Numbered from the stretch's first letter, positions 10,167 to 62,826 are shown. The stretch is 64,000 nucleotides of DNA from Cypionkella aquatica (GCF_030161095.1 NZ_BSPP01000005.1:124001-188000); one strand, 5' to 3'. Notes: generated by a model not told the origin, from the letters alone. Program-made: numbers and translations.

Positions 10167-10204
10167 CTTACTCTCCATCCCGTCACACCCGACGGTGTTT
10201 AGCG

Positions 10205-10400
10205 TTTCTTTGCACGGCCGGTCTCCTGGCTTGCGGGTCGTAGCAACCCCTCCCCTTCCCAGCCATGCGGCCAGTGGATATTGAGGGGCCGCTCTCCGCA
10301 TACAGTCGCGGGGGCGGCTGGGGCTTGGGGTGCCTATTGGTCCACCCATTCCCCATTCTCGTTTCAGTCCAGACGCTTTGCGTTTTTAGAACACCATGCC
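10205..10400 (-). promoter_or_regulatory. cobalamin riboswitch 1 (cbtB leader)
   Basis: On the minus strand the order of conserved elements is GAAACGAGAATGGGGAA, then GCCGCCCCCGCGACTGTA, CCACTGG, GGGAAGG and the B12 box GCAAGCCAGGAGACCGGCC, ending about 40 nt before the cbtB start. These are the class-I adenosylcobalamin riboswitch elements in correct order. The 5' boundary is approximate. Confidence 0.9.
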
Positions 10401-10557
10401 CGTTCATCACTCGTCTAATGCCCCACTTCGGTCAAGCAGAATTGCGGCGGATGCGGGCACGGCCCCGACATTCTTTGCGGGTTTGAGTTTTGGCAAGGTT
10501 GGAGTGTGGCGCAGGCTGGACGGCGGCGACGTGGGCGCAGGTTTTTACGCCGGGTTT

Positions 10558-24088: not shown

Positions 24089-24187
24089 CAGCCTATCCAT
24101 GCTTGGCACTGGGATGGCCAGAAAAGCACGGCCAAGGGCCTTGCCTGCTGGTCGCGAAACACCCCGTTCGCCCGTTCAGTCACATGC

Positions 24188-24355
24188 GCTGGCAGGTCTC
24201 CCGGCTTGCGGATCCGGGGCTTCCCCCACGGCGGCCCGCCTTCCCGGATTGCTCCAGTGGCCTCGGGCAACCTCTCCGGTCACGGTCGCGGGGGCGGCAG
24301 CTTTCGGGGTCGCCCCCTTTCACATTCCCTCTTCGCCTGTCATAAACAGGAACCA
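24188..24355 (-). promoter_or_regulatory. cobalamin riboswitch 2 (DUF1636-cobW-cobN leader)
   Basis: On the minus strand all conserved parts appear in order: GGTTCC, GAAGAGGGAATGTGAA, CTGCCGCCCCCGCGACCG, GCCACTGG, GGGAAGGC and the B12 box GCAAGCCGGGAGACCTGCC. About 100 nt separate it from the DUF1636 start, enough for an expression platform containing a GGCAAGGCCCTTGGCC-type stem. Confidence 0.93.
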
Positions 24356-24411
24356 GCGCAGCCCACCTCATGGCACAACCGCGCCCCTTGTCAAGCAACG
24401 GAAAACACCCG

Positions 24412-49761: not shown

Positions 49762-50694
49762 ATGTCCCTTACCGTGTTTTTCTCTGCCCCCTTCGTCTGG
49801 GATGAATACCGCGATCTGTTGCCGCAAAAACTGGCTGAGGCTGGCATTGACGCCGATGTTGTCACCGAAGCCCCCGACCCAAGTGTGGTCGATTACATTA
49901 TCTATGCGCCCTCGGCGCCGTTGCAGGATTTCACCCCATTCACCCACTGCAAGGCGGTTCTGGGTCTTTGGGCCGGGGTCGAACGCATTGTCGGCAACAC
50001 CACGCTGACGCAGCCTTTGTGCCGGATGGTCGATAACAGCTTGACCGAGGGCATGGTGGAATGGGTGACGGGGCATAGCTTGCGGCATCATCTGGGGATG
50101 GATCGGCATATCATCAACTCGGACCGGGTCTGGGATCCCACCTGCCCGCCGCTTGCGCGCGAACGCAAAGTGACGATGCTGGGCATGGGCGCGCTTGGCA
50201 CTGCCTGCGCCAAGGCGCTGGCTGCCCTGAATTTCAATGTTGTGGGGTGGAGCAGGACTGAAAAGAACGTCGAAGGCATCCCGACCTTTCACGGCCAGGA
50301 TGGATTGCAGACCGCCTTGCACGGGGCTGACATCGTGGTGACGCTGCTGCCCAAAACCCCCGAGACCGAGAATATTCTGAACGCCGAGCATCTGGCGCTG
50401 CTGAAACCCGGCGCGTTTGTGCTTAATCCCGGTCGCGGGCCGCTGATCGACGATGCGGCTTTGCTTGCAGCACTGGACAGCGGCCAGATCGGCCATGCCA
50501 CGCTGGACGTGTTCCGCATTGAACCTTTGCCGCAAGATCATCCGTTCTGGGCGCATCCGCGTGTGACAGTGACGCCGCATATCGCAGCAGATACCCGCGC
50601 AACTGGGGCCGTCAAAGTGCTGATCGAAAACATACGCCGCGCGGAAGCAGGTGAGCCGCTGTTGCATCTGGTGGATCGCGCGCGCGGCTATTAA
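49762..50694 (+). CDS. ghrA: glyoxylate/hydroxypyruvate reductase A
   Basis: The 310-residue D-2-hydroxyacid dehydrogenase has the NAD(P) motif VTMLGMGALGTACAKALA (GxGxxG variant), LLPKTPETENILN, PGAFVLNPGRGPLIDD, the catalytic glutamate in FRIEPLPQDHPFWAHP and the histidine in VTVTPHIAADTR. Length and the HPFWAHP block fit the GhrA subgroup, which reduces glyoxylate and hydroxypyruvate. It might reduce glyoxylate formed by the FAD oxidase at 57768, but that is only a possibility. Confidence 0.87.
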   Translation: MSLTVFFSAPFVWDEYRDLLPQKLAEAGIDADVVTEAPDPSVVDYIIYAPSAPLQDFTPFTHCKAVLGLWAGVERIVGNTTLTQPLCRMVDNSLTEGMVEWVTGHSLRHHLGMDRHIINSDRVWDPTCPPLARERKVTMLGMGALGTACAKALAALNFNVVGWSRTEKNVEGIPTFHGQDGLQTALHGADIVVTLLPKTPETENILNAEHLALLKPGAFVLNPGRGPLIDDAALLAALDSGQIGHATLDVFRIEPLPQDHPFWAHPRVTVTPHIAADTRATGAVKVLIENIRRAEAGEPLLHLVDRARGY

Positions 50695-50841: not shown

Positions 50842-51708
50842 ATGACATATTTAAGCGGCGCATTTCTTATCATCCTTGCCGGAGTGCTGTGGTCGGTGCA
50901 GGGGCTGATCATTCGGCTGATCCCGGACGCCGGATCTTGGGCGATCCTGTTCTGGCGCTCGGCCGGGATGCTGCCGGTGCTGGCCCTGTGGATCGGCATG
51001 GCGTCGCGCCGCAATGCGGTTTCAGAGATCCGCGCTGTCGGCTGGGCCGGGGTGTTGGGCGGGCTTGGCTTGGTGATGGCATTTTCTGGCGCGATCTATG
51101 CGTTTCAAGCCACGAGCGTTGCCAATGCGGTGCTGCTGTTTGCGGCCTCGCCATTCTTTGCCGCTATCTTGGGACGGATCCTGTTGGGGGAATGGGTCAG
51201 TCCTCTGACATGGTTTGCCATCGTGCTTGCTGCGATCGGGATTCTGGTGATGGTGGGCGGCGGGCTTGCAGGTGGGGCGATGGATGGCAATATCGCGGCG
51301 CTGGCTTCGGCTTTGGGCTTTGCGATTTTCACCGTGACGCTGCGCTGGGGCAAATTGGCCAATATGTTGCCTGCCGTGGCCTTGGGCGGGTTGTTTTCCA
51401 TGCTGGCAGGCGCTGTAGCGCTGGGGCTGTTGGGCAAAGCGGTGTTGATCCCGCTGCCTGAAATCGCCATCTCGGCTTTGATGGGGGCGATCACCTTGAC
51501 CGGGGGCATGTTGCTTTACACCGTCGGCAGCAAGGTCGTGTCTGCCGCACAAGCCACTTTGCTTTCGTTGATCGAGGTGTTGCTGGCACCGCTTTGGGTG
51601 TGGTTGCTGCTGGGTGAGACAGTATCGCGCGGCACTTTGATTGGGGGCGCTGTGCTTCTGGTCGCGGTGTTGCTGAACGCCTATGGCGGGCGGGCTCAGC
51701 GGGCGTGA
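50842..51708 (+). CDS. EamA/DMT-family transporter
   Basis: The 288-residue protein has ten hydrophobic helices in two repeated EamA halves; YAFQATSVANAVLLFAASPFF and VSAAQATLLSLIEVLLAPLWVW are the matching end-of-half blocks. GAGGG lies upstream of the ATG. Members export or import small metabolites; the substrate cannot be told. It precedes, on the opposite strand, the RpiR regulator of the amine cluster. Confidence 0.88.
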   Translation: MTYLSGAFLIILAGVLWSVQGLIIRLIPDAGSWAILFWRSAGMLPVLALWIGMASRRNAVSEIRAVGWAGVLGGLGLVMAFSGAIYAFQATSVANAVLLFAASPFFAAILGRILLGEWVSPLTWFAIVLAAIGILVMVGGGLAGGAMDGNIAALASALGFAIFTVTLRWGKLANMLPAVALGGLFSMLAGAVALGLLGKAVLIPLPEIAISALMGAITLTGGMLLYTVGSKVVSAAQATLLSLIEVLLAPLWVWLLLGETVSRGTLIGGAVLLVAVLLNAYGGRAQRA

Positions 51709-51761: not shown

Positions 51762-52631
51762 TTAGCGGTGGCGGCGAAAGAACCTTGTGCGCGCGTAAAG
51801 CTCTTCCAGCCGTTTCATCCGGCCTTCGGTGACATCCCACGTCAGGTCTTGCACGGCGGCAAGCAGGGTTTCCACCAGCACCATCAAAGAGACGTTGCTG
51901 TCCCATGCCGAGGGGGCCTCGATATGGCAGGCCAAAGTATGGCGGGCATGGGCCGAGGCCGGTGATATCCAGCGGTCGGTGATCAGCACGATTTCCGCCC
52001 CGCGTTCCTTTGCCATTTCAGCCACTTGCAGCACGGCGTTTTCATAGCGGCGGATGTCGAACACCAACAGCACATCGCCGGGCTGCATATCCAGCAGTGC
52101 GGGTTGCCAAGTGGAGGAACTGTCCGACAGCAGCGTGACTTGCGGGCGCACGATGGTCATCAACGAGGTGAAATAATCCGCCATCGAATGGGTGATCCGC
52201 CCACCCATCGCAAACACATGCCGCGCGGGGTCCGCCAGCAGCAAGGCGGCAGCATCAAATTCGGCATGGTCGATCTGGCCCAAAGTGGCCTGCAGGTTGG
52301 CGACCACCGCATCGGCAAAACGGTTGAGGATATGGGTTTCCGGCACTCCCCCCGCCCAGCGGTCATGTTTGGCGATGGGCGAGACCAGCATCGCCTCGAC
52401 CTCGCCGCGCAGGGCAGCTTGGAAATCAGGATAGCCTTTGTAGCCCAGCTTTTGTGCCAACCGCACCACGGTCGGGGTGGACACCTGCGCCGCCTTGGCC
52501 AGAATGGTGATCGAACCCAAGGCCGCCACCGGGTAATGTGACAGCACATGCGTCGCCAATTGCCGCTCGGCCCGCGTGAGGTCGGGCAAGGCCGTGCGCA
52601 GTTGCTCATCCAGCGGCAGTCTGGCGTTCAT
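51762..52631 (-). CDS. MurR/RpiR family transcriptional regulator
   Basis: The 289-residue regulator has an N-terminal HTH (LTRAERQLATHVLSHYPVAA, then SITILAKAAQVSTPTVVRLAQKLGYKGYPDF, residues ~18-70) and a C-terminal SIS domain (VFAMGGRITHSMADYFTSL, PGDVLLVFDIRRYEN). SIS domains bind phosphosugars or related ligands. GGGAGG precedes the ATG at 52631. It is divergent from the amidohydrolase at 52790 with 158 bp between, the usual layout of a local regulator. Confidence 0.9.
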   Translation of the reverse strand: MNARLPLDEQLRTALPDLTRAERQLATHVLSHYPVAALGSITILAKAAQVSTPTVVRLAQKLGYKGYPDFQAALRGEVEAMLVSPIAKHDRWAGGVPETHILNRFADAVVANLQATLGQIDHAEFDAAALLLADPARHVFAMGGRITHSMADYFTSLMTIVRPQVTLLSDSSSTWQPALLDMQPGDVLLVFDIRRYENAVLQVAEMAKERGAEIVLITDRWISPASAHARHTLACHIEAPSAWDSNVSLMVLVETLLAAVQDLTWDVTEGRMKRLEELYARTRFFRRHR

Positions 52632-52720
52632 TGTGGCCTCCCTCTTGCGGGCCAGCCTAGCGCAGATTGCAGCGTCAAGAAAAGCCCGTTTGGAAAAGAT
52701 CGTATCAGCCCCGCCCCACA

Positions 52721-52733
52721 AGAAACATTCTTG
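52721..52733. promoter_or_regulatory. candidate regulator operator
   Basis: AAGAA-ACA-TTCTT is a 5+3+5 palindrome in the divergent intergenic region and overlaps a TTGACA at 52732-52737 that could be a -35 box for the plus-strand cluster. It is a candidate RpiR site only. Confidence 0.35.
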
Positions 52734-52789
52734 ACAGAGCCGCAGCAAAGGGTGAGCCTTGATGCAGTTTCAGGAGATGACTCGTCACC

Positions 52790-53608
52790 ATGCGCGCCGC
52801 CACCGATGCCAAAACGCCAACCAACGCCAAGGATTTCGCGGCTGCGCAACAGGCGTTTTTGCCAGTGATCGAGAATGTCGCAGCGCAAGGCCGGATCATT
52901 CTGGTCTGCGAGCATGCCTCGAACCATGTTCCGCCCGCTTGGGGCGATCTGGGGCTGACAGAAGCGCAGCGCCAAGCCCACATCGCTTGGGATCCGGGCG
53001 CTTTGGCGGTATCGCGCGGGCTGTCGCAACGCTTGGATGCGGTGCTTATTCATGCCCCGGTCAGTCGTCTGGTCTATGACTGCAACCGCGCGCCGGATAT
53101 GGCTGGCGCGATGCCTGCGCGCTCGGAAGTCTATGATATCCCCGGAAATGCCATGATCTCAACAGCTGAGCGTCTGGCGCGGACTGAGGCGGTCTATCTG
53201 CCCTGGGCCAATGGCCTGCATGGGTTGATTGCCACCCGGATCGCCTTGGGGCTACGGCCTGTTGTGGTAACGATCCACTCTTTCACGCCCGTCTATCACG
53301 GCAAACCTCGCCGCGTCGAATTTGGCGTGATCCACGACGCCGACCCGCATTTTTCGGTGGCGATCCTCAATGCCGCCCGCAAACTGACAGGATTGCAGGC
53401 CGAGTTGAACGCGCCCTATTCGGCGGCGGATGATGTGACACATACTTTGCGGGTGCAGGCGACGCCGTATGGCTTGCCCAATGCGATGCTGGAAATCCGC
53501 AATGATCTGATCGCCACGGCTGCGGCAGCAGAGGCGATGGCTGATCAACTCGCTGCCGTTCTGAACATGGGGCTGGTTGAAATTCAGCGGCAGGCCAAGG
53601 CCAGTTGA
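52790..53608 (+). CDS. N-formylglutamate amidohydrolase family protein
   Basis: The 272-residue protein has LVCEHASNHVPPAWGDLGL, the SRLVYDCNRAPD block, TAERLARTEAVYLPW and IHSFTPVYHGKPR, all of the N-formylglutamate amidohydrolase (HutG-like) zinc-dependent family. No histidine-degradation genes are near. It is the first gene of a plus-strand set with a glutamine synthetase-like ligase and two dehydrogenases, so it may instead cleave an N-acyl or gamma-glutamyl amide made there. AGGAG lies 13 nt upstream, rather far. Confidence 0.85.
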   Translation: MRAATDAKTPTNAKDFAAAQQAFLPVIENVAAQGRIILVCEHASNHVPPAWGDLGLTEAQRQAHIAWDPGALAVSRGLSQRLDAVLIHAPVSRLVYDCNRAPDMAGAMPARSEVYDIPGNAMISTAERLARTEAVYLPWANGLHGLIATRIALGLRPVVVTIHSFTPVYHGKPRRVEFGVIHDADPHFSVAILNAARKLTGLQAELNAPYSAADDVTHTLRVQATPYGLPNAMLEIRNDLIATAAAAEAMADQLAAVLNMGLVEIQRQAKAS

Positions 53609-53697
53609 GCCGGGTTTGAGGCTTCTCGACGGGGCGTCAGCCCCGAATGCAAATGACCCCGCATCGGTCGGGGAAAACATAAGTGGAGATCCCGGAT

Positions 53698-55062
53698 ATG
53701 CCCGGTAATTTAACCCTAGCTGAACTGAAAGCCGCTGTAAAAGCTGGCGAAATTGACACCGTTCTGGTGGCTGGCATCGACATGCAGGGCCGCCTGATGG
53801 GCAAGCGTTTTCACGCGCAATTCTTCGTCGATGGCGGATATGAAGAGACCCATTGCTGCAACTACCTTCTCGCCGTCGATATGGAGATGAATACGGTTCA
53901 GGGCTATAAATCCTCAAACTGGCAGACTGGCTACGGCGACTATATTCTGAAAACCGACATGAGCACCCTGCGCCGCGTGCCGTGGCTGGAAGGCACCGCG
54001 ATGGTGCTGGGCGACACGCTGGATCACCACCACAACCCGGTGCCACACGCGCCGCGCAACATCCTGAAGCGTCAGGTCGAGCGCGCCCGCGCCATGGGTT
54101 TCGATGCAATGATGGCGACCGAGCTGGAATTCTATCTGTTTGAAAACAGCTACGAATCTCTGCGCGACAGCAATTTCACAGGGCTTAAACCGGTCAGCGC
54201 CTATAATGAGGATTACCACATCTTCCAGACCACCAAGGAAGAAGACGTGATGCGCGCCGTGCGCAACGGGCTGTATGGCGCAGGCATCACAATTGAGAAC
54301 TCCAAGGGTGAGGCGGATGCCGGGCAAGAGGAGGTCAACTACAAATACTCCGACGCCTTGGATACCGCCGACAACCACACCATCGTCAAACACGGCATCA
54401 AGGAAATCGCCTGGTCCAAGGGCAAATCGGTGACCTTTATGGCGAAGTATGATCACCGCAAGGCCGGATCGTCGTCGCATTGCCACCAGTCTTTGTGGAC
54501 GCTGGACGGCAAGCCTGCGTTCTTTGATGACAAAGACAAGCACGGCATGAGCCAGCTTATGAAACACTACATCGCGGGCCAGTTGGCCTATGCGCGGGAA
54601 ATGACGGTGTTTCTCGCACCCTACGTCAACAGCTACAAACGCTTCACCGTGGGCATGTTCGCGCCGACCAAAGCCGTCTGGTCTGCCGACAACCGCACCG
54701 CTGGCTTCCGCGTTTGCGGCGAGCATACCAAGGCGATCCGCGTCGAATGTCGTATCCCCGGCAGCGATGTGAATCCCTACCTCACCTGCGCGGCACTGCT
54801 CGCTGCTGGTCTTGACGGCATCGAGCAAAAGCTGGAGTTGGAACCCGAAATGCAGGGCGATATGTATGCCGCAGGCGATGTCCGTGAAATCCCGCACAAC
54901 CTGCGCGAAGCGGCTGATCTGCTGAACGCCTCCGCCATGTATCGCAAAGCCTTTGGCGATGATGTGGTGGATCACTACCACCACGCCGCGCAATGGGAGA
55001 TTTCGGAAACCGACCGCGTGGTGACCGATTTTGAAATCCAGCGCCTGCTAGAGCGCGCGTAA
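53698..55062 (+). CDS. glutamine synthetase-like amine--glutamate ligase
   Basis: The 454-residue protein has GS folds: DMQGRLMGKRF at the start, the metal glutamates in ATELEFYLFE, GEADAGQEEVNYKY, the SSSHCHQSLW block in place of the canonical GxHxHxS, and RVECRIPGSDVNPYL. Divergence from GlnA and the neighbours (aldehyde and alcohol dehydrogenases) point to the group that attaches glutamate to amines, as PuuA, IpuC or GlnA4 do, rather than to ammonia assimilation. The ATG 53698 has GGAG upstream; a GTG at 53683 is possible. Substrate unproven. Confidence 0.82.
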   Translation: MPGNLTLAELKAAVKAGEIDTVLVAGIDMQGRLMGKRFHAQFFVDGGYEETHCCNYLLAVDMEMNTVQGYKSSNWQTGYGDYILKTDMSTLRRVPWLEGTAMVLGDTLDHHHNPVPHAPRNILKRQVERARAMGFDAMMATELEFYLFENSYESLRDSNFTGLKPVSAYNEDYHIFQTTKEEDVMRAVRNGLYGAGITIENSKGEADAGQEEVNYKYSDALDTADNHTIVKHGIKEIAWSKGKSVTFMAKYDHRKAGSSSHCHQSLWTLDGKPAFFDDKDKHGMSQLMKHYIAGQLAYAREMTVFLAPYVNSYKRFTVGMFAPTKAVWSADNRTAGFRVCGEHTKAIRVECRIPGSDVNPYLTCAALLAAGLDGIEQKLELEPEMQGDMYAAGDVREIPHNLREAADLLNASAMYRKAFGDDVVDHYHHAAQWEISETDRVVTDFEIQRLLERA

Positions 55063-55124
55063 GTAGGGTGCGTGATTTCACGCACCTGCCTTCAGATAAA
55101 GACGCGTGAAATCACGCACCCTAC
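55063..55124. repeat. 21-bp perfect inverted repeat
   Basis: The 21-base arm beginning GTAGGGTGCGTGATTTCAC at 55063-55083 is repeated exactly inverted at 55104-55124 with a 20-base loop. Each arm is itself nearly palindromic. It fills the gap between the GS-like gene and the aldehyde dehydrogenase gene and matches the element at 1991-2014. It could slow transcription or protect the upstream mRNA. Confidence 0.85.
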
Positions 55125-55138
55125 CAAGGACCAACACG

Positions 55139-56518
55139 ATGAAACCGATTCAACTAATCTCGCCAGTGGACGGCTCGGTCTATGCCGAACGCACGCCGCT
55201 GACACTTGACGCGGCCAAAGCCGCCGCCGCCCGCGCCAAAGCCGCACAAAAAGGCTGGGCCGCGCGCCCCTTGGCCGAACGCATTGCGCTTGTGAAGGCG
55301 GGCGTTGCCAACCTGAACGCCAATGCTGAAACCATCGTGCAGGAACTGGCTTGGCAAATGGGCCGCCCCACCCGTTTTGGTGGCGAATTTGGCGGTGTGA
55401 ACGCCCGGACCGACTATATGTCGGAAATCGCAGCCACCACGCTCGCCCCGCAAACCGTTGAAGACAGTGACAAGTTCCGCCGCTACCTTGCGCGGGAAGC
55501 CTTGGGCGTGGTGTTCATTGTTGCCCCTTGGAACTATCCTTACCTCACCACGATCAACACCCTCGTCCCCGCCCTGATCGCCGGAAACACGGTTGTGCTG
55601 AAACACGCCAGCCAGACCATGCTGGTGGGCGAACGTCTGGCCGAAGCGTTCCACGCAGCTGGCATCCCAACGGACGTGTTCCAGAATGTTGTGCTCGACC
55701 ATGCCACCACCGAACATCTGATCGCCAACCGCGCGTTCAATTTCGTGAACTTCACAGGCTCGGTCGGCGGTGGTCAGGCGATTGAGCGCGCAGCGGCTGG
55801 CACTTTCACCCCGTTGGGGCTGGAACTCGGCGGCAAAGACCCCGGCTATGTCCGCGCCGACGCCAACTTGGATGCCGCCGTCGATACGCTGATGGATGGT
55901 GCGATGTTCAACGCGGGCCAGTGCTGCTGCGGGATTGAGCGGATTTATGTGCATGAAAGCCTGTATGACGCCTTTGTCGAAAAGGCCGTAGCTTGGGTGA
56001 AAACCCTCAAACTCGGCAATCCGTTTGAGGCCGACAGCACCCTTGGCCCGATGGCGAACAAGCGTTTCGCCGCCGTCGTGCGCGGCCAGATTGCCGAGGC
56101 TGTGGCGGCAGGGGCAAAGGCCCTGATCGACCCCGCCCTGTTCCCCGCCGATGACGGTGGCGCCTACCTCGCCCCGCAAGTGCTGGTGAACGTGGATCAT
56201 TCGATGCGGGTGATGATGGAAGAATCCTTCGGCCCGGTCGTCGGCATCATGAAGGTGAAAGACGACGCCGAAGCCCTGCGCCTGATGAACGACAGCCCCT
56301 ACGGCCTGACCGCCAGCATCTGGACCGAGGATTACGACACCGCCGCCGAATTAGGCGCGCAGATCGAAACCGGCACAATCTTCATGAACCGCGCCGATTA
56401 CCTTGACCCGGCTTTGTGCTGGACCGGCTGCAAAGACACCGGACGCGGCGGCAGCCTGTCTTACCTCGGGTTCCTCTCGGTCACCCGCCCGAAATCCTAC
56501 CATCTGAAGAAAGTCTGA
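55139..56518 (+). CDS. aldehyde dehydrogenase family protein
   Basis: The 459-residue NAD(P)-dependent enzyme has VAPWNYPYLTTINTL, the NFTGSVGGGQ loop, the general-base glutamate in LELGGKDPGYV and the nucleophile in FNAGQCCCGIERI (Cys262-264, three in a row, the catalytic one being among them). The C-terminal EESFGPVVGI and NDSPYGLTASIWT are standard. AAGGA lies 7 nt before the ATG. Together with the iron alcohol dehydrogenase it forms an alcohol-to-acid pair. Confidence 0.92.
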   Translation: MKPIQLISPVDGSVYAERTPLTLDAAKAAAARAKAAQKGWAARPLAERIALVKAGVANLNANAETIVQELAWQMGRPTRFGGEFGGVNARTDYMSEIAATTLAPQTVEDSDKFRRYLAREALGVVFIVAPWNYPYLTTINTLVPALIAGNTVVLKHASQTMLVGERLAEAFHAAGIPTDVFQNVVLDHATTEHLIANRAFNFVNFTGSVGGGQAIERAAAGTFTPLGLELGGKDPGYVRADANLDAAVDTLMDGAMFNAGQCCCGIERIYVHESLYDAFVEKAVAWVKTLKLGNPFEADSTLGPMANKRFAAVVRGQIAEAVAAGAKALIDPALFPADDGGAYLAPQVLVNVDHSMRVMMEESFGPVVGIMKVKDDAEALRLMNDSPYGLTASIWTEDYDTAAELGAQIETGTIFMNRADYLDPALCWTGCKDTGRGGSLSYLGFLSVTRPKSYHLKKV

Positions 56519-56521
56519 ACC

Positions 56522-57682
56522 ATGACGCACTCAGTCCCCAACCGGAACTGGTCCTACCCCACCGCGATCAAATTCGGCGTGGGCCGCATCAGCGAACTGG
56601 CCGAGCATTGCGCGGCCGCCGGGGTGAAAAAGCCGCTGTTCGTCACCGACAAAGCGCTCGCCTCCCTGCCGATCACCGCCGAAGCCGTGGCGATCCTGAA
56701 AGCCCACGGCCTTGGCACGGCGGTATTCTCGGAAGTCGATCCGAACCCGAATGAGAAGAACATGGCCGACGGCATCGCGGTCTATCTGGCGGGCGGCCAT
56801 GACGGCGTGATCTGCTTTGGCGGCGGCTCGGCCCTCGACCTTGGCAAGATGATCGCCCTGATGGCGCATCAGCGCAAAGACCTGAGCGTCTGGGATCTGG
56901 AGGATATCGACGACTGGTTCACCCGCGCTGATGCGTCGAAAATCGCGCCGATCATCGCAGTGCCGACCACCGCTGGCACCGGGTCTGAAGTCGGTCGCGC
57001 GGGCGTGTTGACCAACTCGGTCACCCATAAGAAAAAGATCATCTTCCACCCGAAACTGCTGCCCGTGGTGACGATCTGCGACCCGGCGCTGACCGTGGGG
57101 ATGCCGAAATTCATCACCGCAGGCACTGGCATGGACGCGCTGGCGCATTGCCTTGAGGCGTATTCAAGCCCCTTCTATCACCCGATGAGCCAAGGCATCG
57201 CGCTGGAGGGCATGCGGCTGGTGTTCGAGAACCTGCCCAAAGTCTACGCCAACCCCAACGATCTGGATGCCCGCGCGCATATGATGTCGGCGGCGGCGAT
57301 GGGGGCTACTGCGTTCCAGAAGGGTCTGGGGGCGATCCACAGCCTTTCCCACCCAATCGGCGCGGTTTACGGCACCCATCACGGCACCACCAACGCCGTG
57401 GTCATGCCGATGGTGCTGGATATGAACCGCGCGGCGATTGAGGATCGCATCAACGCCGCCGCAGCCTATCTGGGCATCACGGGCGGCTTTGATGGCTTCC
57501 GTGCCGCTGTGATGGATCTGCGCAAGACCCTCAACATCCCGGAAAACCTGACCGCTTTGGGCGTCACCAACCCCGATCTCGACACGCTGACCGAGATGGC
57601 ATTGGAAGACCCGTCATGTGGCGGCAACCCGGTCGCGATGACACGCGAGAATACCCGTGCGTTGTTCGAGGCTTGCCTGTAA
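56522..57682 (+). CDS. iron-containing alcohol dehydrogenase
   Basis: The 386-residue group-III dehydrogenase has ICFGGGSALDLGKMIAL for NAD binding, VPTTAGTGSEVGRAGV, and the metal-binding DALAHCLEAYSS plus HSLSHPIGAVYGTHHGTTN histidines. It starts 3 bp after the aldehyde dehydrogenase stop, so the two are co-translated. A terminator at 57706 ends this transcript. The natural alcohol is unknown; see the cluster finding. Confidence 0.93.
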   Translation: MTHSVPNRNWSYPTAIKFGVGRISELAEHCAAAGVKKPLFVTDKALASLPITAEAVAILKAHGLGTAVFSEVDPNPNEKNMADGIAVYLAGGHDGVICFGGGSALDLGKMIALMAHQRKDLSVWDLEDIDDWFTRADASKIAPIIAVPTTAGTGSEVGRAGVLTNSVTHKKKIIFHPKLLPVVTICDPALTVGMPKFITAGTGMDALAHCLEAYSSPFYHPMSQGIALEGMRLVFENLPKVYANPNDLDARAHMMSAAAMGATAFQKGLGAIHSLSHPIGAVYGTHHGTTNAVVMPMVLDMNRAAIEDRINAAAAYLGITGGFDGFRAAVMDLRKTLNIPENLTALGVTNPDLDTLTEMALEDPSCGGNPVAMTRENTRALFEACL

Positions 57683-57705
57683 TCCAAGGCAGACCTAGCC
57701 TTCCC

Positions 57706-57736
57706 AAACGGGCATCGGTGACGGTGCCCGTTTCTA
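57706..57736 (+). terminator. terminator after the GS-ALDH-ADH genes
   Basis: AAACGGGCA pairs with TGCCCGTTT around a ten-base loop 23 bp after the alcohol dehydrogenase stop, with a short T tract. Confidence 0.75.
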
Positions 57737-57767
57737 TACGCCCAGTTTGATTTGGACCCGGCCCAGC

Positions 57768-59009
57768 ATGACCGAACACGTCACTACAGATATTGCAATC
57801 CTTGGCGCGGGCGTGGTGGGCCTTGCGATTGCCGAGGCGCTGACCGCTGAAGGGCGCGAAGTGGTGCTGGTCGATCCCGGTCGGCCCGGCATGGGCGCAA
57901 GCTATGGCAATGCCGGCACCATCGCTGATTACGCGGTGATGCCGGTGGGCAGCCCGGATGTGCTGCGCAATCTTCCGTCGCTGCTGCTGAACAAGAACTC
58001 TCCGCTGGCGATCAGGCGGGCAGCTTTGCCTTCGCTTGCGCCGTGGCTTATGCGGTTTGCGCGGCAATCTTTGCCGGGGCCGACCGCGCGCAATGCGGCG
58101 GCGATTGCGGCGCTGGTTGGCGATGCTTGCCCCAGCTGGTTGGCGTTGGCCGACCGGATTGGCGGGGCTGCGATCTTGCAGCACAAAGGGTGCCTGTATC
58201 TTTACGAGACCGCCGCTGGCTTCAAAGCCGCCGAGGACGATATGGCGTTCCGGCGCACGCAGGGGATTACGGTGGAGTTGATCTCTCCCGATACCTTGGC
58301 GGCGATGGAACCCGGTTTGCCTGCGGTAGAAGGCGGCGCTGCGTTCTTTCCCAAGGCGGTGTTTCTGTCCGACCCCGGCCTGATGGTGCAGACCTTGGCC
58401 ACGCATGTGTTCAAGCAGGCAGGGTTTGTGCAGGCCGAGGCGCGCAGGATCACCCGGCAATTCGATGGCATCGTGGTCGAGGGTCCGAACCTCCGGCTGC
58501 GCGCCCGCAGGGTGATCATCGCGGCGGGGGCACATTCAAAGGCGCTGGCACTGCAGGCGGGGGACCGCGTGCCGTTGGATACCGAGCGGGGCTATCATGT
58601 CGAATGGGATATGGCCGCACCCCGGCTGAACCGGCCTGCTTGCCCGACCTCGCGCGGGTTTTATCTGTGCCCGATGACTGGCCGTCTGCGGGTCGCGGGC
58701 ACGGTGGAGTTGGGGGGGCTGACGGCACCGCCCTCGCCGCACCGGATCAAGAAACTGGTCGAGGGGGCGCGGGCGATCTTTCCTGATCTGGGGGAACCTG
58801 ATCGGGAGTGGATGGGCTTCCGGCCTTCGATGCCGGATTCGGTGCCTGTGATCGGGCCAAGCCGGGCTGGGCCTGAGATTATCCATGCTTATGGGCACGG
58901 GCATATTGGGCTGACTTTGGCCCCGATCACGGCAAGATTGGTGGCGGCGCTGGTCGCGGGCAGGCCGCCGGAATTGGATCTGACACCCTATCTGCCGGGG
59001 CGGTTTTAG
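57768..59009 (+). CDS. FAD-dependent oxidoreductase (DadA-like)
   Basis: The 413-residue protein has the FAD motif DIAILGAGVVGLAIAEAL at the N-terminus, SYGNAGTIADYAVMPVG, the RGYHVEWDM region and a C-terminal GFRPSMPDSVPVIGPS plus HAYGHGHIGLTLAP, as in D-amino acid dehydrogenase DadA and related amino acid oxidases. It sits after the GS-like cluster but behind a terminator, so it has its own promoter. It may oxidise the amino acid released by the pathway. Confidence 0.87.
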   Translation: MTEHVTTDIAILGAGVVGLAIAEALTAEGREVVLVDPGRPGMGASYGNAGTIADYAVMPVGSPDVLRNLPSLLLNKNSPLAIRRAALPSLAPWLMRFARQSLPGPTARNAAAIAALVGDACPSWLALADRIGGAAILQHKGCLYLYETAAGFKAAEDDMAFRRTQGITVELISPDTLAAMEPGLPAVEGGAAFFPKAVFLSDPGLMVQTLATHVFKQAGFVQAEARRITRQFDGIVVEGPNLRLRARRVIIAAGAHSKALALQAGDRVPLDTERGYHVEWDMAAPRLNRPACPTSRGFYLCPMTGRLRVAGTVELGGLTAPPSPHRIKKLVEGARAIFPDLGEPDREWMGFRPSMPDSVPVIGPSRAGPEIIHAYGHGHIGLTLAPITARLVAALVAGRPPELDLTPYLPGRF

Positions 59010-61163: not shown

Positions 61164-62150
61164 TTACAGCATCCCCGGCACGACCTGATCCGGCGGACGG
61201 TGGCCGTCGGCAAAGGTCTTGATGTTGATGATCACCTTCTCGCCCATCTCGACCCGGCCTTCGACCGTGGCCGAACCCATATGCGGCAGCAGCACCACAT
61301 TGGGCAGGTCGCGCAGGGTCGGGTTGATCTCGGTGCCGTGTTCGTAGACATCAAGGCCCGCGCCGCCGATCTCGCCCGCCTTAAGCCCGCGTGCCAGCGC
61401 GTTTTCGTCGATCACTTCCCCGCGTGAGGTGTTGATGATCACCGCTGTCGGTTTCAGCAGCTTCAGCCGCCGCGCGTTCAACAGGTGAAAGGTTGATGGC
61501 GTGTGTGGACAGTTGACGCTGATGATGTCCATGCGGGCGATCATCTGATCAAGGCTTTCCCAATAGGTGGCCTCTAGCTCTGCCTCGATTTCGGGGCGCA
61601 GGCGTTTGCGGTTGTGGTAATGCACCTGCATGCCAAAAGCGCGGGCACGGCGGGCCACAGCCTGCCCAATCCGCCCCATGCCAAGGATGCCCAGACGCCG
61701 CCCCCCGATGCGACCGCCCAGATTGGCCATAGGCGACCAACCTTGCCAGCCGCCCGCCTGCATCACCGAAAGGCCCTCGGGGATGCGGCGTGTGACCGAA
61801 AGCATCAGCGCCAGCGTCATATCTGCGGTATCGTCCGTCACCGTGCCGGGGGTGTTTGACACCAGTATTCCACGGCTGCGGGCGGTTGCGACATCAATGT
61901 GGTCCACACCCGAGCCATAATTGGCGATCAGTTTCAGCCTGTCGCCCGCTTGCGCGATCAGGCTTGCATCAATCTGATCGGTGATCGTCGGCACAAGGAC
62001 ATCGCAGCGCCGCATCGCGCTTGCCAGATCATCCCGGCTCATGGCGGTGTCGGGGTCGCGCAGCTCGACATCGAACAATTCCTTCATCCGCGTTTCAACG
62101 GCTTCGGGCAAACGTCGTGTCACGACAACGTTTAAGCGTGTTGCGGGCAT
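61164..62150 (-). CDS. D-2-hydroxyacid dehydrogenase (glyoxylate reductase-like)
   Basis: The 328-residue enzyme has ANYGSGVDHIDVATA, the NAD motif RLGILGMGRIGQAVARRARAF (GxGxxG), VNCPHTPSTFHLLNA, NTSRGEVIDENAL with the catalytic arginine region, and the glutamate/histidine pair in GLDVYEHGTEINPTL and LLPHMGSATVEGR. It fits glyoxylate/hydroxypyruvate-type dehydrogenases. GGAGG is 5 nt from the ATG at 62150. It is divergent from the SH3 protein gene. Confidence 0.88.
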   Translation of the reverse strand: MPATRLNVVVTRRLPEAVETRMKELFDVELRDPDTAMSRDDLASAMRRCDVLVPTITDQIDASLIAQAGDRLKLIANYGSGVDHIDVATARSRGILVSNTPGTVTDDTADMTLALMLSVTRRIPEGLSVMQAGGWQGWSPMANLGGRIGGRRLGILGMGRIGQAVARRARAFGMQVHYHNRKRLRPEIEAELEATYWESLDQMIARMDIISVNCPHTPSTFHLLNARRLKLLKPTAVIINTSRGEVIDENALARGLKAGEIGGAGLDVYEHGTEINPTLRDLPNVVLLPHMGSATVEGRVEMGEKVIINIKTFADGHRPPDQVVPGML

Positions 62151-62247
62151 GGAGGCCTCCCTGCACTTCCAAATCAGCGTATACAGTGGCAAAGTGGCGG
62201 GAAGCGGGGCGAGGCACAAGCCCCCGTCTGTAATGGGGCGCGGCGGG

Positions 62248-62826
62248 ATGAACAGGAAACAGTTTTTAGCGGGCATGGCGGCGGTGCTTTCGGGCGGGCT
62301 GGCGGGAGGTTTGGCGGCCACGCGGGCAAATGCTCAGGAAGAGATGCCAGCTGACGACGCTCTGCCAAAGGCGGATGACAAGGCGCCGCGCGATCCAAAC
62401 AAAGGGCCGGTGACCAACCTGCCCTTGCCGCGCTATGTCAGCCTGAAGGGGCGCGAGGGCAATGTGCGGCGTGGGCCGGGGATGACGCATCGCATCGACT
62501 GGGTGTTCACCACAGCAGGCATGCCGCTGCGGATCACGGCGGAATATGACCGCTGGCGGCGGGTTGAAGATTATCAGGGCATGGGCGGGTGGATGCAGTT
62601 CAACCTGTTGTCGGGGTCTCGGTCGGTTCTGGTGACGCAGGATATGGCAGAATTCCGCGACAGCCCCGACGGACAGGCGCGGGTGGCGTTTCAGGCCGAG
62701 TTGGGCGTGATCGGCAAGTTGATGGAGTGCAATGCCGATTGGTGTCGGGTGAACACCGGCGGCGAAAAGGGATGGATCCTGAAAACCGCGCTTTGGGGGG
62801 TCGATCCGGGCGAAGTGATCGACTGA
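62248..62826 (+). CDS. exported SH3-domain protein
   Basis: The 192-residue protein has a signal peptide (MNRKQFLAGMAAVLSGGLAG, cleavage after ANA), a charged linker, and a bacterial SH3 region with VSLKGREGNVRRGPGMTHRI, WRRVEDYQGMGGWMQFNLL and a second unit ending WCRVNTGGEKGWI. Bacterial SH3 domains bind cell-wall peptides. The ATG at 62248 is chosen; 62233 adds five residues. Substrate or partner unknown. Confidence 0.85.
   Translation: MNRKQFLAGMAAVLSGGLAGGLAATRANAQEEMPADDALPKADDKAPRDPNKGPVTNLPLPRYVSLKGREGNVRRGPGMTHRIDWVFTTAGMPLRITAEYDRWRRVEDYQGMGGWMQFNLLSGSRSVLVTQDMAEFRDSPDGQARVAFQAELGVIGKLMECNADWCRVNTGGEKGWILKTALWGVDPGEVID

Follow-up and report, generated by a model that had tools for sequence, protein, structure and literature searches.

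A cluster of six genes in Cypionkella aquatica, located within the 64,000-nucleotide stretch of DNA that we analyzed (the window), is very probably an operon for ethanolamine catabolism by the known gamma-glutamyl route. Ethanolamine is a breakdown product of membrane lipids and a widespread source of nitrogen and carbon. The core pathway is already known; the layout found here, which has no importer and carries a flavoenzyme gene, is a variant of it. Judged by homology, ethanolamine can likely be named as the substrate because the same operon in relatives includes a TRAP receptor of the ethanolamine type.

The initial annotation described a cluster of six genes, and all six were found in the order that it gave (RpiR, FGase, GS-like ligase, ALDH, Fe-ADH, and DAO-family), the product of each having a Pfam match far above the family cut-off (Table 1). 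The likely starts of the RpiR, ligase, ALDH, and DAO-family genes were chosen by homologue comparison within open frames spanning 51762-52748 on the minus strand (start 52631), 53683-55062 (ATG 53698), 55106-56518 (ATG 55139), and 57747-59009 (ATG 57771), respectively. The Fe-ADH gene starts 3 nt past the ALDH stop. The FGase-GS spacer is rich in stems but ordinary (z = -1.17). The GhrA-like product scored 182 bits against the GhrA NCBIfam model (cut-off 403); its gene is a frequent neighbor of the cluster in relatives, and the enzyme could act on glyoxylate. A second 2-hydroxyacid dehydrogenase gene, of the glyoxylate-reductase type, lies at 61164-62321, and the two flank the cluster.

Table 1. 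Predicted features of the C. aquatica cluster and its immediate neighbors, in window coordinates.
Feature	Position	Strand	Basis
GhrA-like 2-hydroxyacid dehydrogenase; neighbor, doubtful member	49762..50694	+	Best NCBIfam match GhrA
EamA transporter gene; neighbor, doubtful member	50842..51708	+	PF00892
RpiR-family regulator	51762..52631	-	PF01418 and PF01380 above cut-off; start from homologues (e.g. L022)
Predicted RpiR operator, two direct repeats	52693..52737	+	Conserved across RpiR-FGase spacers
Putative gamma-glutamylglycine amidohydrolase (GGAH), N-formylglutamate amidohydrolase family (FGase)	52790..53608	+	PF05013
Putative ethanolamine gamma-glutamylase, GS-like ligase	53698..55062	+	PF00120; 5dm3 likeness; tree clade
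Aldehyde dehydrogenase (ALDH)	55139..56518	+	PF00171; adjoins ligase in 59/60 loci
Iron alcohol dehydrogenase (Fe-ADH)	56522..57682	+	PF00465/PF25137
DAO-family flavoenzyme, probable glycine oxidase/dehydrogenase	57771..59009	+	PF01266; solved glycine oxidases nearest; co-occurrence with ligase

The published operon of Phaeobacter MED193, which is induced on phosphoethanolamine, encodes RpiR, gamma-glutamylglycine amidohydrolase, EtoV, EtoW, EtoX, ethanolamine gamma-glutamylase, and the aldehyde and alcohol dehydrogenases, and its EtoX binds ethanolamine (7.9 uM; PMC10132767). The window shares this gene order (RpiR, divergent GGAH, ligase, aldehyde dehydrogenase, Fe-alcohol dehydrogenase) but lacks the EtoVWX TRAP importer between GGAH and ligase, and it adds a DAO-family gene after the alcohol dehydrogenase. 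A PF00120 ligase of the 5dm3 clade, PF00465 and PF00171 genes beside it, a PF05013 hydrolase, and a divergent RpiR gene are all present, and what is absent is the EtoVWX importer, a part of the published operon that is inessential to the enzymology.

From these likenesses we infer the following steps in C. aquatica. The ligase would join glutamate to ethanolamine at the expense of ATP, the Fe-alcohol dehydrogenase would oxidize gamma-glutamylethanolamide to the aldehyde, and the aldehyde dehydrogenase would convert gamma-glutamyl-aminoacetaldehyde to gamma-glutamylglycine, from which the formylglutamate-family hydrolase would release glutamate and glycine. The DAO-family flavoenzyme would then probably convert glycine to glyoxylate and ammonia, and RpiR would govern the operon via the twin repeats between the divergent genes.

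An amino-alcohol route of this kind (glutamylation, two oxidations, deglutamylation, and amino-acid oxidation) had been proposed in the initial annotation, and it fits the evidence; the route itself is published. The formylglutamate-type deglutamylase, which the initial annotation said would be new, is likewise known: a review assigns PF00120, PF00465, PF00171, and PF05013 to this pathway, with PF05013 as gamma-glutamylglycine amidohydrolase (PMC9397018 Table 2), and the Streptomyces GlnA4 paper likewise names a formylglutamate-family hydrolase (PMC6529630). The S. coelicolor GlnA4 route shares ethanolamine gamma-glutamylation, two dehydrogenases, and this hydrolase family with the cluster, but it belongs to another phylum, and its steps after GlnA4 are predictions (PMC6529630). 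The Chromohalobacter salexigens pathway is an in silico prediction according to PMC6529630 and demonstrated according to PMC10132767, which, for C. salexigens and A. tumefaciens alike, points to Vetting 2015. A search of the whole C. aquatica genome gave no match to EutB of the B12-dependent Eut pathway. Despite the lack of EutB, the minus strand of the window carries a pair of cobalamin riboswitches, at 10199-10413 and 24174-24372 (106 and 87 bits).

The assignment of the ligase is based on structure matches and phylogeny. Its best solved match was PDB 5dm3 (62.5% identity), which we take to be Csal_0679, encoded by the gene adjoining Csal_0678. In the ligase tree the window protein grouped with 5dm3 and 11zs (support 100/99), and both E. 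coli PuuA and the remaining GS-family proteins of the genome lay outside this clade. The catalytic metal and glutamate residues are retained. The HxHxS block, read as altered in the initial annotation, is intact (HCHQS); compared with the genome's own GlnA, it is the preceding GSSS that differs and a DGSS loop that is missing.

For the hydrolase, the sole solved match was PDB 2odf (Atu2144, 245 bits), with which it also grouped in the tree (100/99). The pyk-linked hydrolase paralogue formed a separate clade (100/100), and the window hydrolase stayed outside it when more sequences were added. Several Paracoccus-type loci contain the importer, ligase, and dehydrogenases with no clear GGAH gene, an absence that is provisional as some of them are draft MAGs. 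Among 25 genomes searched for GGAH, four carried a relative of 38-41% identity that the tree does not place, and most of the others seem to carry the pyk-linked type alone. The importer-bearing clusters with no GGAH gene in the cluster include L046, L053, L054, L055, L066, L076, and L077.

To assess conservation, the 80 nearest ligase loci were taken from GTDB genomes; they are mostly from the Rhodobacter group, and the closest is from Cypionkella (97%). The GS-ALDH-FeADH order was kept in 59 of the 60 related loci having at least 6 kb of downstream sequence, RpiR was retained together with the hydrolase in many, and the ligase was present in 72 of 121 sampled family genomes. A lack of co-occurrence in other genomes, which the initial annotation had regarded as fatal to its reading, was thus not observed. 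Given this frequency of the ligase, the gamma-glutamyl route is probably a major way for the family to use ethanolamine independently of B12 and Eut.

Within the spacer between the divergent RpiR and hydrolase genes, the repeats GAAAAGATCGTATCAG and GAAACATTCTTGACAG start 29 bp apart. Direct repeats of the form GAAAAnATTGTAACAG and GAAAnATTCTTGACAG, with starts 29-30 bp apart, occurred in 40 of 42 RpiR-FGase spacers, and Paracoccus alcaliphilus also carries the pair. The element was found in all five RpiR-TRAP loci that had been left out of its construction and in none of eight loci without RpiR. This distribution points to the repeats as the probable binding site of RpiR, and TTGACA, which lies in the second repeat, could double as a -35 box. 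When the C. aquatica genome was searched with the operator for other RpiR targets, the cluster itself was the single match; the predicted regulon is therefore probably the ethanolamine operon alone, and no hidden transporter was revealed.

The role of the flavoenzyme is less firmly assigned. Its nearest solved chains are glycine oxidases, and it is plausible that it oxidizes the released glycine, which makes it a candidate for the step that follows glycine. One alternative, which we consider possible if somewhat improbable, is that it lies outside the pathway as an unrelated neighboring dehydrogenase of the D-amino-acid or sarcosine type. This would agree with its scores, which are under the cut-offs of both the ThiO model (TIGR02352; 117.5 bits, cut-off 250.8) and the DadA model (NF001933; 160 bits, cut-off 383), and with the lack of the gene beside about a quarter of the clusters (it is there in 47 of 65). 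Among 19 genomes lacking it there, two encode a 68%-identical copy at another site, and in the others none exceeds ~50%. A location away from the ethanolamine cluster, between FAA-hydrolase-family and EamA genes, was seen for the orthologue in two Gemmobacter genomes (L120 and L121), as would also be expected of an unrelated enzyme. Against this, orthologues (58% identity or more) were confined to genomes that carry the ligase: they occur in 13 of the 121 family genomes, all 13 being among the 72 ligase carriers (Fisher p = 0.0008, kinship ignored), and in 11 of the 13, C. aquatica included, the gene lies within ~5 kb of the ligase. Moreover, the gene stays beside the cluster on the opposite side and strand in locus L043, and on an Aminobacter plasmid a 45%-identical fragment lies close to the cluster.

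The surroundings of other clusters bear on the fate of glycine. On plasmids of Paracoccus pantotrophus (L159), Aminobacter sp. NyZ550 (L156), and Aminobacter aminovorans (L160), a TRAP-less RpiR-FGase-GS-ALDH-FeADH core directly adjoins beta-hydroxyaspartate cycle genes (bhcBCD or bhcABCD), and in Salipiger abyssi (L163) glyA and an L-serine ammonia-lyase gene come after the core. A narrow literature search found nothing linking either module to the gamma-glutamyl ethanolamine pathway. Such gene contexts support glycine as the pathway product, and they suggest that the modules for its disposal are exchangeable. The C. aquatica genome also encodes the glycine cleavage P-protein, and glycine may therefore have an outlet besides the flavoenzyme. 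We tentatively propose, at somewhat less than even confidence, that the core works as a module whose ends can be exchanged: a slot for the importer filled by TRAP genes, by an amino acid permease, or by nothing, possibly with EamA serving instead, and a glycine-disposal end filled by a DAO-family glycine dehydrogenase, the beta-hydroxyaspartate cycle, or GlyA with serine ammonia-lyase. The flavoenzyme would then be a new, pathway-specific glycine oxidase/dehydrogenase.

At the importer end, 28 of the 63 relatives with enough upstream sequence carry three TRAP transporter genes immediately ahead of the ligase gene; the hydrolase gene precedes them in 18 of the 28 and is missing there in 10. The TRAP binding protein shares 82% identity with PDB 4uab (617 bits), which is Csal_0678, the C. 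salexigens receptor whose structure was solved with ethanolamine (PMC12410723, PMC4646407). The slot is occupied by an amino acid permease on Sinorhizobium and Rhizobium plasmids and is empty in Aminobacter, P. pantotrophus, Ruegeria conchae, and Salipiger, while in Thermomicrobium the ligase adjoins an annotated ethanolamine permease. In C. aquatica the cluster has no TRAP genes, and the whole genome holds no EtoX orthologue (best match 24% identity). The C. aquatica layout recurs in two culturable relatives, Gemmobacter straminiformis (L011) and Fuscibacter oryzae (L036). Surveys that use EtoX as a marker would miss carriers of this sort.

Several candidates for the importer of C. aquatica were considered. 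An ethanolamine-permease-like gene elsewhere in the genome scored under the curated cut-off (183 vs 382 bits) and adjoins N-methylglutamate-type genes, and it was set aside. EamA genes adjoin 27 of 35 TRAP-less clusters compared to 2 of 28 TRAP-bearing ones, and in R. conchae the EamA gene directly follows that of the alcohol dehydrogenase. However, a tree-aware test of this association gave a median p of 0.25, there being too few independent changes, and the EamA proteins encoded beside other clusters showed no close relationship; we regard EamA as a lead and did not adopt it as the substitute importer. Some TRAP-less relatives encode EtoX-like proteins of ~62% identity, and these were not counted as EtoX, having kinase, dehydrogenase, and DeoR-like neighbors (two loci, by eye). 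A second TRAP receptor, ~62% identical to EtoX, occurs with DeoR-like regulator and kinase-like genes in L116 and L119. The cluster of Tabrizicola soli is without RpiR, and a separate contig of that genome carries an RpiR-EtoVWX block (L117). It could be speculated that ethanolamine enters in its uncharged form by simple diffusion.

Another possibility is that loss of the receptor marks a switch of substrate, the same chemistry acting on a different amino alcohol such as 1-amino-2-propanol, alaninol, or 3-aminopropanol. A genome without an EtoX orthologue would be expected in that case, and the TRAP-less ligases do mostly cluster on the tree. Nevertheless, this is unlikely: the ligase tree requires seven or more changes in TRAP presence among otherwise similar clusters, the TRAP-bearing locus L022 is placed among TRAP-less ligases, the operator is unchanged, and TRAP-less clusters on plasmids adjoin glycine/glyoxylate genes.

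A Puu-type route for polyamine catabolism, in which the DAO enzyme would act on the glutamylated amine as PuuB does, is very unlikely. The GS-like ligase, ALDH, and DAO-family oxidase do resemble the products of puuA, puuC, and puuB, and in the E. coli Puu pathway an amine is likewise glutamylated, oxidized, and deglutamylated. The E. coli pathway differs, however, in having a ligase of another clade, a hydrolase (PuuD) of another family, and no alcohol dehydrogenase. The window ligase scored 185 against the glutamylputrescine synthetase model (cut-off 650), no PuuD-type amidotransferase accompanies it, many related clusters have no DAO gene, and C10 carries a Puu-like cluster of its own, which includes two GS genes (by eye). 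The reading was rejected on the ligase tree, the model scores, and this separate cluster. An IpuC-type role in isopropylamine use was also rejected. IpuC-annotated ligases, such as that of Paenarthrobacter aurescens TC1, are likewise GS-like amine ligases, but the identity is ~38% and the neighbors are different (P450, ferredoxin, and short-chain dehydrogenase genes). A role of the ligase as glutamine synthetase, whether ordinary or backup, would be allowed by its conserved metal and glutamate residues but is extremely improbable and was rejected in view of its GlnA model score (260, cut-off 429) and the missing DGSS loop, to which can be added the separate GlnA gene on C7 and the operon shared with dehydrogenases and a hydrolase.

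The C. aquatica genome holds seven GS-family genes in all (including L110 on C10, L109 on C11, L111 on C7, and L112 on C5 past the window end). By eye, one paralogue adjoins glutamate-synthase-like genes, two belong to the Puu-like cluster, and the neighbors of the C11 paralogue suggest a cluster of the N-methylglutamate type.
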